Below, one piece after another: positions 1 through 42,942 of a stretch of 42,942 bases of DNA (positions are counted from its first letter, which is position 1; the number at the start of each line of letters is the position of its first letter). A program made the position numbers and the translations under genes. Source of the DNA: a virus; IMG/VR virus record IMGVR_UViG_3300045120_000409, positions 1 to 42,942 of that record, one strand, 5' to 3'. The notes under the pieces are model-generated. The model searched no databases. It had not been told where the DNA came from and saw only the letters and a program-made list of their open reading frames with translations.

Positions 1-127
1 GCCGCCGCGCGCACGAACGGCAAACTCGGCGGCGGGCAGTTCGTCTATCCGCGCGGCACCACCGGCGCGCAGCGCTACCACCTCCGCAACATCGCCGCCC
101 AGGGCGGCAAAGTCATCACCGACGCAC
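1..127. repeat. Terminal direct repeat, left copy (circular overlap)
   Basis: These 127 bases are identical to 42816-42942. The repeat lies inside one small gene that reads correctly across the joint, so it is best read as the overlap of a circular contig. A length of exactly 127 fits a common assembly k-mer size. A real short terminal redundancy is less likely but cannot be excluded from sequence alone. Confidence 0.9.
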
Positions 128-251: not shown

Positions 252-1430
252 CTAGGCGGCTCGCTTACGGCGCTGGCGCTTCGCAGGAGCGGGTTTCGGC
301 GTCGCGGGGGCCTCATACTTCGGCCGGGCCCCGAAGGCCTCAGAGAGGGCCGCGCCAGCCGCCTTGAGGTGCGCGGGCACTGCGCCCTGCGCGTAGCGGA
401 ATGTGGTGCTGCTGTCCGCGTGGTCAAGAAGCTGGCCGGTGATGGAGAGGCTGCCAGTCTGCCGGTAGACCATCGCGGCGAAGCTGTGCCGGAGGTCATA
501 CGGCCGCATCGTCGCCGCGCGGGAGAGGTCGAGGTCGGGCCGCGACTTTTTCAGCTCTTTGATCGCCGCGTCCCTGGCGCGGACGAACGTGCGCCGGATC
601 GAAGAATTGGACGGTGTGACGCCCCAGCAGTTGGCCGCGTCGAACGCCTTGAACGCTTCGACCGCGTCCGGCGTGATCGGCTTGCGCCGGGCCCGCGTGC
701 CCTGGCCCTTCTTCCGGCCTGGGCAGCTAATCTCCATCGCGTCCCAATGCACGTCGCCGCGCGACATCCTGGTGAGCTGGGCTCGCGTCACCGGCGCGTA
801 GGCCTCGACCGACAAGAACGCCTTGGTGCGCGACGGCTCGCCGCCCTGGCCGGTGTCGCGGATGTTGGCGAGAATGGCGTCGATCAGCTCATACGGCTGA
901 TCGCGTCGCTGCGGCTCGGCCTTGTCGAAGCGCGTGATCTCGCGGAAGGGGTTCGCGGCGTTCTTGCCGTCGAGCACCGTGAAGACATGCGACAGCGCCG
1001 TGCGGTATTTGTCTTTGGTCGAATCGCTGACAGCCAAACCGTTGAGCGCCTGCTGCAGCTCGACGTGGCCGCCCTTCTGCAGGAAGGACTGGCGGGTGCG
1101 TTTCCCGAATTTCGATACCCACCACCCGAGCTGCTGCTTCCGCTCTTCGCGTCGCCGGTCAGTAAGGGTGGCCGTCTTCAGATATTCCTTCACATCACCG
1201 GCGAGCAGCCCGCGCGTGCCGTTGCTGACGGCGGTGCCGATGGTCGCCTGCTCGTTCTTGAGCTTGCCCTTCTCGTCGTGCCAGCGCGCCTGGAGGACCT
1301 TCAGGTCGGTTCCGAGCGGATACCGTGCCTCAGGCGAGGACAGCTCACGCGCGCCACTGCCGACGCGGGCGATGACGCTGATGCCGTGCGCGTCCTGGTA
1401 GATGCCGGGTGCCAATTTGATGCGTTTCAT
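252..1430 (-). CDS. int: Tyrosine-recombinase integrase
   Basis: The 392-residue product is a site-specific recombinase of the lambda Int family, which joins attP to the host attB. Counting from the chosen start, the catalytic set is visible: Arg216 in APVTRAQL, box II at 311-315 as YDLRH (Arg314, His315), His337 in LLDHADSSTT and the nucleophile Tyr346 in FRYAQ. The first His of the usual HxxR is Tyr here, a change seen in other members. The C-terminus is basic (AKRQRRKRAA). ATG at 1430 was chosen because AAGGAG lies 9 bases upstream (1440-1445). The longer reading to 1511 would translate through the arm-site repeats. The attP core sits about 220 bp upstream. Confidence 0.93.
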   Translation of the reverse strand: MKRIKLAPGIYQDAHGISVIARVGSGARELSSPEARYPLGTDLKVLQARWHDEKGKLKNEQATIGTAVSNGTRGLLAGDVKEYLKTATLTDRRREERKQQLGWWVSKFGKRTRQSFLQKGGHVELQQALNGLAVSDSTKDKYRTALSHVFTVLDGKNAANPFREITRFDKAEPQRRDQPYELIDAILANIRDTGQGGEPSRTKAFLSVEAYAPVTRAQLTRMSRGDVHWDAMEISCPGRKKGQGTRARRKPITPDAVEAFKAFDAANCWGVTPSNSSIRRTFVRARDAAIKELKKSRPDLDLSRAATMRPYDLRHSFAAMVYRQTGSLSITGQLLDHADSSTTFRYAQGAVPAHLKAAGAALSEAFGARPKYEAPATPKPAPAKRQRRKRAA

Positions 1431-1472: not shown

Positions 1473-1583
1473 TTTCCACGTATTGAAAAACTTCCACGCA
1501 CTTACTTCCACGCACTCTGCGTGGAAGTCATAGAATCATTGAGTCATTCGTTAAGAGTGTTATAGACGGGTTTTGCGTGGAAG
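1473..1583. promoter_or_regulatory. Integrase arm-type sites, P arm (five copies of CTTCCACGCA)
   Basis: Copies lie at 1473-1482 (TTTCCACGTA, imperfect), 1491-1500 and 1505-1514 (CTTCCACGCA), and 1518-1527 and 1574-1583 (reverse complement TGCGTGGAAG). The pair 1505-1527 is a perfect 10-bp inverted repeat with a 3-bp spacer. Short repeats clustered between the integrase gene and a tRNA-like core are the hallmark of arm-type sites bound by the integrase N-terminal domain. They overlap the integrase upstream region, so the enzyme could also repress its own gene. The role is inferred from position and repetition. Confidence 0.8.
1539..1566 (+). promoter_or_regulatory. Possible rightward promoter
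   Basis: TTGAGT (1539-1544) and TATAGA (1561-1566) are spaced by 16 bp in a locally AT-rich stretch. If active, it would read through the attP core towards the gene at 1826. Each hexamer matches the sigma-70 consensus at only four of six positions, and the spacing is short. Confidence 0.3.
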
Positions 1584-1651: not shown

Positions 1652-1698
1652 TGGTGCGCCCGGCAAGAATTGAACTTGCGGCCCCCCGCTTAGGAGAG
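1652..1698 (-). other. attP core: 3' half of tRNA-Arg(CCU)
   Basis: On the minus strand this reads as the 3' half of a tRNA: anticodon loop CTCCTAA (anticodon CCT), then a T-arm GCAAG-TTCAATT-CTTGC, then acceptor strand CGGGCGC, discriminator A and CCA. No 5' half follows, and the sequence beyond 1698 cannot pair with this acceptor strand, so it is not a complete tRNA gene. A tRNA 3' half beside an integrase gene is the classic attP core: insertion rebuilds an intact host tRNA gene. The exact crossover limits cannot be set without the host attB. Confidence 0.88.
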
Positions 1699-1756: not shown

Positions 1757-1766
1757 CTCCCACGCA
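1757..1766 (+). promoter_or_regulatory. Arm-type site, P' arm
   Basis: CTCCCACGCA matches the CTTCCACGCA arm repeat at nine of ten positions. It lies on the far side of the tRNA-like core from the main cluster, giving the expected P and P' arms. Apart from this site, the core and the P-arm cluster, 1431-1825 holds no gene that I can support. Confidence 0.55.
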
Positions 1767-27779: not shown

Positions 27780-28015
27780 TGGACGACGACGTGGTCATCG
27801 TGCTCTGCACGCTCGCCTCCGAGCCCTCGATGTTCGATGACGACCAGCGCGGCGTGTGCATGAAGTGCGGCGTCGCGGTGAAGTATCGACCGGAACATGC
27901 CGGGCGGAAATACCTGTGCATCGCGTGCGCGTGCGAGGATGAGGACATCGATGAAATCGCGGTGACCCGCCGCACCGTCGAGGAACTACGCGCGCTCGGC
28001 ATCATCAAAGGGTGA
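27779..28015 (+). CDS. Small zinc-binding protein
   Basis: The 78-residue acidic protein has two CxxC pairs, CMKC near residue 28 and CIAC near residue 47, separated by a basic loop (KYRPEHAGRKYL). This is a zinc-ribbon arrangement. Its last 5 bases overlap the 5' end of the tRNA-Ser gene. It is translationally coupled to the DUF3846 gene. Confidence 0.6.
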   Translation: MDDDVVIVLCTLASEPSMFDDDQRGVCMKCGVAVKYRPEHAGRKYLCIACACEDEDIDEIAVTRRTVEELRALGIIKG

Positions 28016-28098
28016 GGTGGCCGAGCGGCTGAAGGCAGCGGGTTGCTAACTCGCCAGACGGCAACGTCTCCAGGGTTCGAATCCCTGTCTCACCGCCA
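28011..28098 (+). tRNA. tRNA-Ser(GCU)
   Basis: A complete 88-base tRNA with acceptor GGTGAGG/TCTCACC (one G-T pair), discriminator G and encoded CCA. The anticodon stem GCGGG/CTCGC surrounds loop TTGCTAA with anticodon GCT (28045-28047). A long class II variable arm follows (CAGACGGCAACGTCTC), and the T-arm is CAGGG-TTCGAAT-CCCTG. It reads AGC/AGU serine codons. Its 5' end overlaps a coding gene by 5 bases. Confidence 0.96.
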
Positions 28099-29973: not shown

Positions 29974-30321
29974 ATGTTCACCGTTCACATCACGCCCAAC
30001 GACAAAGGCAACCCTCCCGGCAAACTCGCCGACGCCGCGCTGCACTTCAGCGACGGCCCGCTCGGTGGGCTCAAGCTCATCGGCTTCTCGGTGTGGGAAC
30101 GTCGCGGCGGCGGCGGCCGCAACGTCACCTTCCCGGCGCGGCAGTATTCCGTCAACGGCGAGCGCCGGTCGTTCGCCCTGCTCCGGCCGGTCGTGGACCA
30201 CGACGCGCAGCTCAAGGTCAAGGACGCCATCCTGGAGGCCTACGCGGCCTTCGAGGCGCACATCGCCGACGCGGCGGCCAACGGCGCTGCCGCGCCCCTC
30301 GACTTCGCCTACGCGGTCTAA
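29974..30321 (+). CDS. SpoVG-like regulator
   Basis: The 115-residue protein has the order of strands and helix seen in SpoVG: a first part ADAALHFSDGPLGGLKLIGFS, then NVTFPARQYSVNGERRSFAL with the FPxR-like element, then LRPVVDHDAQLKVKDAILEAY. SpoVG proteins bind DNA or RNA and regulate cell-surface and sporulation genes in Firmicutes; phage versions are uncommon in my knowledge. AGGAG lies 8 bases before the ATG. It is the last gene of its unit, ending at the terminator at 30346. The assignment rests on pattern only. Confidence 0.6.
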   Translation: MFTVHITPNDKGNPPGKLADAALHFSDGPLGGLKLIGFSVWERRGGGGRNVTFPARQYSVNGERRSFALLRPVVDHDAQLKVKDAILEAYAAFEAHIADAAANGAAAPLDFAYAV

Positions 30322-42750: not shown

Positions 42751-42942
42751 GCAAAAATCGACACGCCGTCGCGCTCGGCCGTCTCGGCGGCAAGGCCCGC
42801 ACGCGCGCCAAGGTCGCCGCCGCGCGCACGAACGGCAAACTCGGCGGCGGGCAGTTCGTCTATCCGCGCGGCACCACCGGCGCGCAGCGCTACCACCTCC
42901 GCAACATCGCCGCCCAGGGCGGCAAAGTCATCACCGACGCAC
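42747..42942 (+). CDS. Small GGK-motif phage protein, 5' part (continues at 1)
   Basis: The gene starts here with ATG (ATGA overlap; GAGGAG upstream) and continues across the circular joint to the stop at 177, giving 81 residues. The part from 42816 to 42942 is the second copy of the terminal overlap. Only the first 23 codons (42747-42815) are unique to this end. Confidence 0.72.
   Translation, partial: MSKNRHAVALGRLGGKARTRAKVAAARTNGKLGGGQFVYPRGTTGAQRYHLRNIAAQGGKVITDA
42816..42942. repeat. Terminal direct repeat, right copy (circular overlap)
   Basis: Identical to 1-127, shown by direct comparison of both ends. Removing one copy gives a circle of about 42,815 bp with an intact gene across the joint. 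Confidence 0.9.

Follow-up and report, generated by a model that had tools for sequence, protein, structure and literature searches.

A tRNA-Arg(CCU) 3' half as the predicted attP of a P22-like phage with a probable host in Vicinamibacterales

The window, that is, the whole stretch of DNA that was analysed, represents a viral record, 42,942 bases in length, that closes into a circle of 42,815 bp through a terminal direct repeat (Table 1). Among its products, Pfam recognizes an ERF protein along with a portal of the P22-like type (PF16510), and PHROGs a terminase; the map is circular and P22-like, and the phage is very probably temperate. A tyrosine integrase gene, half of a tRNA-Arg(CCU) and a series of short repeats lie together near the start of the record. 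Elsewhere, the phage encodes a tRNA-Ser(GCT) (28011-28098), and several Vicinamibacterales genomes contain sequences that match it along its length at about 82% identity. For a 115-aa gene at 29974-30321, whose product has no Pfam match, stretches with 68-84% nucleotide identity occur in most members of a set of 162 Vicinamibacterales genomes, sometimes at two places per genome.

Table 1. Coordinates of the features of the predicted attachment region and of the ends of the record; offsets are counted from C32, the first base of the anticodon loop
Feature	Position	Strand	Basis
Terminal direct repeat, 127 bp, identical to 42816-42942	1..127	.	record closes into 42,815-bp circle
Tyrosine integrase, start at ATG 1430 (392 aa), reading frame open as far as GTG 1511	252..1430	-	PF00589 1.1e-07, phrog_1 4.5e-17, A1 alignment
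Putative arm-type site, offset +196	1491..1500	-	repeat search
Putative arm-type site, offset +182	1505..1514	-	repeat search
Putative arm-type site, inverted, offset +169	1518..1527	+	repeat search
Putative arm-type site, inverted, offset +113	1574..1583	+	repeat search
tRNA-Arg(CCU) 3' half from the anticodon loop to CCA, block of identity between attP and attB	1652..1696	-	host and sister identity
Anticodon loop CTCCTAA, predicted 7-bp overlap region for strand exchange	1690..1696	-	predicted cut position
Putative arm-type site, non-integrase side, offset -70	1757..1766	-	repeat search

Read on the minus strand from 1696 down to 1652, the half tRNA comprises 45 bases, the first of which is the first base of the anticodon loop, C32. 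The loop CTCCTAA is followed by the 3' stem strand GCGGG, the variable loop GGGCC, the T-arm GCAAG-TTCAATT-CTTGC, the acceptor strand CGGGCGC, a single A and CCA. This minus-strand reading confirms an earlier one made from the letters alone (the sequence-only reading), which had described the anticodon loop, T-arm, acceptor strand and CCA as intact. The proposal made there that an attP core is formed by the 3' half of tRNA-Arg(CCU), with no 5' half, also stands, but the span given for it, 1652-1698, is two bases too long: 1697-1698 (CT) lie outside the tRNA, the host has GC at the equivalent place, and the identity shared with the host and with the attP sites of 15 other phages starts at 1696. 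Neither ARAGORN nor Rfam calls a tRNA over 1652-1696, the tRNA-Ser(GCT) being the sole call in the window, and the 5' half is therefore absent. A candidate 5' acceptor strand upstream of the half was judged to be a chance match, its spacing being unfit for a tRNA and no tRNA being called there by ARAGORN. Just beyond the CCA, the A-rich stretch at 1607-1652 resembles a CAAAACATTCAATAAATTCG-like stretch conserved in several sister attP sites, and it may be a binding place for a DNA-bending protein.

The half tRNA adjoins the integrase gene, with 221 bp between ATG 1430 and 1652, and is accompanied by repeats on both sides. Five copies of a TGCGTGGAAG unit, with one mismatch allowed, are found at -70, +113, +169, +182 and +196 from C32, and the four exact copies of ACTTCCACGCA that the window (42.9 kb) contains are all within 1490-1584. 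The five copies compare with at most 3 in 25 dinucleotide shuffles, and the arm repeats beat all 25 such shuffles in 14 of 16 attP regions, the window among them; two contigs, L129 and L130, have no significant arm repeats against the 25 shuffles. Most of the other phages bear repeats at similar offsets, with pairs about 13 bp apart near -70/-57 and +170/+183, and the letters of the arm sites vary from phage to phage while the spacing stays. This layout is that expected of arm-type sites, and the repeats are considered here as putative binding sites. As in attP of the lambda type, arm repeats flank the core, one on the side away from the integrase and four toward it, and the placement of the half tRNA between an integrase gene and arm-type repeats supports its assignment as a lambda-type attP.

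The same arrangement recurs in other viral contigs, 15 of which matched the family pattern. Each of the 15 contains the 3' half only, with C32 as its first base. ARAGORN makes tRNA-Arg calls over the halves of L127 (74 bases) and L133 (69 bases), where the upstream sequence does not read as that of the host 5' half, and some of the 15 contigs retain the 5' stem strand CCCGC in part or in full. A homologue of the window integrase is present at the CCA side in 12 of the 15 by phmmer and in 13 with the inclusion of L126, the integrase of which is found in L216 of the same contig, while L129 has no recognizable integrase. A search that used the integrase alignment alone against the viral contigs yielded 23 loci, 11 of them on pattern-found contigs, and 20 of the 23 bear the 3' half of a tRNA truncated at the anticodon loop (18 by computation and two by eye, namely L222 and L223, the latter without CCA). 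By their anticodons, 17 of these 20 halves belong to tRNA-Arg (CCT, CCG or TCG) and the rest to Lys(TTT), Val(CAC) and Asp(GTC). As a single-protein query, the window integrase returned no relatives in the viral contigs, and tblastn of the same protein gave no matches in 50,697 phage records. The assignment of the half tRNA as an attP is supported because of the adjacent integrase, the flanking arm repeats, the 15 contigs with the same cut and the outcome of the integrase-first search.

The exact 45-mer is matched in none of 84,980 genomes nor in the viral contig collection, and the 28-mer of T-arm and acceptor strand is likewise not matched in the latter. A relaxed pattern, in which the anticodon, T-arm and acceptor were fixed and ten positions left free, was run on the 84,980 genomes and gave a single match, L094, a Vicinamibacterales MAG of the Acidobacteriota. 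The tRNA-Arg(CCT) of L094 is intact, 76 bases in length, and the same as the phage half at 44 of 45 positions, an agreement by which a chance origin of the half is excluded. The sole mismatch is a variable-loop base and the identity is bounded by C32 and CCA; at one mismatch, this is the allele nearest to the identity block among host tRNA 3' parts. Among 162 genomes of Vicinamibacterales, a 41-base pattern with up to 3 mismatches matched four, and a looser whole-tRNA pattern found 35 tRNA-Arg(CCT) loci in 34 genomes with 16 distinct 3' halves. The T-loop TTCAATT, described as unusual in the sequence-only reading, is the usual one in this order, occurring at 30 of the 35 loci.

A control across the phylum used an even sample of 396 of its genomes and the family pattern with one mismatch allowed, members of the order being counted by handle. 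Eight of the 396 genomes matched in all, comprised of 7 of 42 Vicinamibacterales, all exact, and 1 of 354 genomes outside the order, with one mismatch; exact matches outside the order numbered none of 354. Phyla beyond Acidobacteriota were covered through the exact 45-mer and the relaxed pattern only. The half tRNA is thus supported as an identifier of the host at the level of the order, Vicinamibacterales, with the host species being something that we infer. The earlier expectation that the half would identify the host and that a genome search would recover an identical tRNA-Arg(CCU) is borne out to that extent, with 44 of 45 positions shared by L094, but no identical host tRNA was found in the 84,980 genomes. 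The host assignment draws on one tRNA half together with weaker signals from the tRNA-Ser and the 115-aa gene, these two having been compared within Vicinamibacterales only. That the attP is correctly read and the host is not of Vicinamibacterales, but, for example, of another order with an unsampled identical tRNA, is unlikely. Such a host would account for the lack of any exact allele, and genome collections cover part of soil diversity; however, the sole relaxed-pattern match is from Vicinamibacterales, 12 of the 15 sister halves are identical to a Vicinamibacterales tRNA-Arg(CCT) allele, and the phylum control agrees. The remaining three sister halves and that of the window are 1 or 2 bases off the nearest Vicinamibacterales allele.

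Taken as a whole, the locus is very probably the attP through which a temperate P22-like phage integrates at tRNA-Arg(CCU) of a Vicinamibacterales bacterium. On this view, the phage attP has a copy of the host gene 3' half, from anticodon loop to CCA, and the tyrosine integrase would bridge the core and the putative arm-type sites at about -70 and +113 to +196. Strand exchange is predicted to occur within the 7-bp anticodon loop, at cut positions that are likewise predicted, and would swap the host 3' half for that of the phage. The tRNA would be restored at attL, beside the integrase gene, and the host's own 3' half would be left at attR. Indeed, when the L094 5' half and the phage 3' half were joined in silico, ARAGORN scored a tRNA-Arg(cct) at the predicted attL and no tRNA at the predicted attP and attR.

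Prophages flanked by the same sequence, also anticipated by the sequence-only reading, did not come to light for this phage: the integrase, an integrase profile and the phage DNA in two 20-kb pieces were searched against the 162 Vicinamibacterales genomes, which are few and incomplete assemblies, and no copy of a prophage of the window phage was found, nor any attL or attR belonging to it. The short DNA matches given by the 20-kb pieces are for the most part probably high-GC words common to phage and bacteria. The surroundings of the 35 host tRNA-Arg(CCT) loci, to a distance of about 5 kb, yielded no related integrase except for one 14.5-bit match; several of these loci are on contigs that end near the tRNA. 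The integrase group as such occurs in the order at 23 places in 14 of the 162 genomes (E 1e-20), and several of these places adjoin halves or genes of other tRNAs, e.g., Arg(TCT), Arg(TCG) and Arg(CCG). One Vicinamibacterales genome, G042, contains a lone 3' half (C118:880; L115 880-924) and an intact tRNA-Arg(CCT) (C92:121522; L122 5523-5592) with a T-stem unlike that of the lone half. Nearly the same sequence follows both, and a C-terminal fragment of an integrase lies beside the intact copy. To judge from these sequences, it seems that another element used the same tRNA-Arg(CCT) in G042, and that traces of stacked elements are present there.

The lone half of G042 illustrates that displaced 3' halves of exactly such a kind exist, and the half in the window might by analogy be a displaced piece of attR bordering an integrated prophage or tandem element, not the attP of a free phage. 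This is very unlikely, given that the record is circular through its 127-bp terminal repeat, from which it follows that the half tRNA is an attP and not a prophage end, and that the arm sites flank the core with spacings like those of the sister phages. It is highly improbable, too, that the half represents a phage tRNA gene in decay that plays no part in integration: although tRNA fragments can be relics and the phage has another tRNA gene, that of tRNA-Ser(GCT), the T-arm is perfectly paired, the CCA is kept, a single mismatch separates the half from the host gene, and the same cut point is found in 15 of 15 other contigs, with the integrase beside 13. A tRNA-dependent lysogeny like that of mycobacteriophage Fionnbharth, where the host tRNA is disrupted on integration and its function is taken over by a tRNA gene of the phage, would share the type of target (a tRNA gene used by a tyrosine integrase) and would suit a phage that encodes a tRNA, but is scarcely credible for a core of 45 bp, not the approximately 10 bp described in PMC10865867, with a gene that is restored in silico and a phage tRNA that is Ser, not Arg.

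Integration at an attP that rebuilds the host tRNA is a mechanism of a known, ordinary kind, for which the evidence here is good, and the value of the locus lies in the host assignment, the set of attP sites and two oddities of the integrases. A search of the literature found no paper on Vicinamibacterales phages using tRNA-Arg(CCU). The argW gene of Escherichia coli encodes a CCU tRNA, tRNA-Arg(CCU), and the phages HK620 and Sf6 are P22-like. The KplE1/HK620/Sf6 module at argW resembles the window in that a tyrosine integrase is accompanied by arm and core sites, the target isoacceptor is the same, the integrase reads away from the tRNA end (the STI shape), and its upstream region overlaps the attachment region. 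However, the duplicated core of that module is described as being 16 nt long and located at the 3' terminus of the gene (PMC2951348), compared to 45 nt from the anticodon loop in the window, and the host phylum differs. Membership of the window in this module was considered and rejected, its core starting at the anticodon loop and tblastn giving no relative among the 50,697 phage records.

A likeness in architecture is presented by mycobacteriophage Boilgate and its site attB-4, for which PMC10865867 describes a 43-bp common core with some mismatches, a tRNA 3' half in attP, restoration of the tRNA at attL and putative arm-type sites that flank the core. The window shares with this class the 3'-half attP, the tRNA that would be rebuilt at attL and the flanking arm sites, and differs from Boilgate, whose target is tRNA-Lys(TTT) in a mycobacterial host. 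In the anticodon-loop class outlined in PMC8371274 (citing Williams 2002 and Campbell), the 7-bp loop is the overlap region and the stem forms an inverted repeat that flanks it. By comparison, the window attP keeps the right stem strand only, whereas several sister phages keep both, as CCCGC-CTCCTAA-GCGGG.

The N-terminal end of the window integrase faces the CCA, and its gene reads away from the half tRNA in the STI shape. The C-terminal end faces the CCA, in what is termed the OC shape, in all 12 pattern-found relatives with an integrase and in all 18 integrase-found relatives with a half, 11 contigs being common to both sets. Both terms are used in PMC2951348, where intS of KplE1 at argW is of the STI shape and STI integrases of its kind are described as self-regulated because the promoter overlaps attL. 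Differing orientations of int in related phages are described for phiRSA1 and phiRSY1 (PMC5694545). In the window, ATG 1430 is immediately preceded by the putative arm sites at +113 to +196, and it is therefore plausible that the integrase gene is repressed by its own product via these upstream sites. A consensus search found no sigma-70-like promoter.

The predicted fold of the integrase (pLDDT 84.5) matches XerA, Tn1549 Int and lambda Int, and its active-site residues were compared through alignment of the integrases to XerA and XerD. The alignment, A1, is comprised of 13 integrases, namely that of the window (252-1430) and those of L128, L137, L133, L134, L131, L132, L127, L130, L124, L136, L123 and L135. 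K241, R314, H337 and Y346, which together with the compared columns we take to be the catalytic residues of the tyrosine integrase family, are invariant in A1, as is an arginine two residues before K241. The column aligned with the first catalytic arginine (box I) contains T, P, A or S in all 13 integrases, and the first histidine is replaced by tyrosine in 12. The A1 integrases, which lack the canonical first arginine, nevertheless adjoin intact attP sites. Among related integrases of host genomes, some keep the first arginine and others lack it. Of the integrases that lack it, 18 of 18 (the 13 of A1 along with L083, L084, L171, L173 and L174) have the arginine that precedes the lysine, as seemingly do about 10 that keep the first arginine. 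As these 10 or so seem to have both, relocation of the first arginine to two residues before the catalytic lysine is offered only as a hypothesis. Two other subgroups, IntDes from Desulfovibrio and IntCTnDOT from Bacteroidetes, are described in PMC8138268 as departing from the RKHRH pentad at its first arginine, which is shifted or absent; there, the relocated arginine of IntCTnDOT is given as shown biochemically, and the first histidine of IntDes as a tyrosine. The window integrase group is like these subgroups by residue description only, in that the box I arginine is absent in 13 of 13 and, as described for IntDes, a tyrosine takes the place of the first histidine in 12 of 13.

Comparisons between pairs of sister phages suggest that the attachment region is subject to exchange. 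For L128 and L134, 144 of 150 bp agree on the left side of the core, against 40% identity on its right, and the halves are equal at 36 of 45 positions and differ at nine, a pattern like that of a recombination event at the core; their integrases are 71% identical. The integrases of L132 and L222 are 92% identical, yet the halves of these two differ at 10 of 45 positions. From these contrasts it follows that the half can change while much else stays, and the phages may trade att modules or acquire the allele of a new host. More tentatively, it is possible that phages of Vicinamibacterales have a common clade of integrases without the canonical first arginine, perhaps with the arginine two before the catalytic lysine in its stead, and that this clade is tied to the anticodon loop of tRNA-Arg genes as its target, with arm sites whose letters diversify and whose spacing is kept. 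The attP half would then record the host allele, making host switches readable, and att/int modules would be swapped at the core.

Through this attP, sequence alone gives an uncultivated phage a host at the level of the order and a predicted integration site that is exact, and the same reasoning extends to a group of further phages whose hosts belong to an order represented here mostly by MAGs. The combination of one conserved core with many arm-site alphabets and integrases should be useful for the study of how integrases choose their arm sites. These integrases should also insert DNA at tRNA-Arg genes of Vicinamibacterales, bacteria for which, to our knowledge, there are few genetic tools.

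Relatives of the terminase were found at 80 viral loci, and terminase relatives are poor guides to the att site because only 2 of the 20 records examined have a related integrase (38% and 31%). The contig of one terminase relative, G017 (L090 5154-5230), ends 3 bases into a core-like CTC sequence and has arm sites at -70 and -57; this is suggestive only, and is perhaps the same attP cut by the end of the contig.
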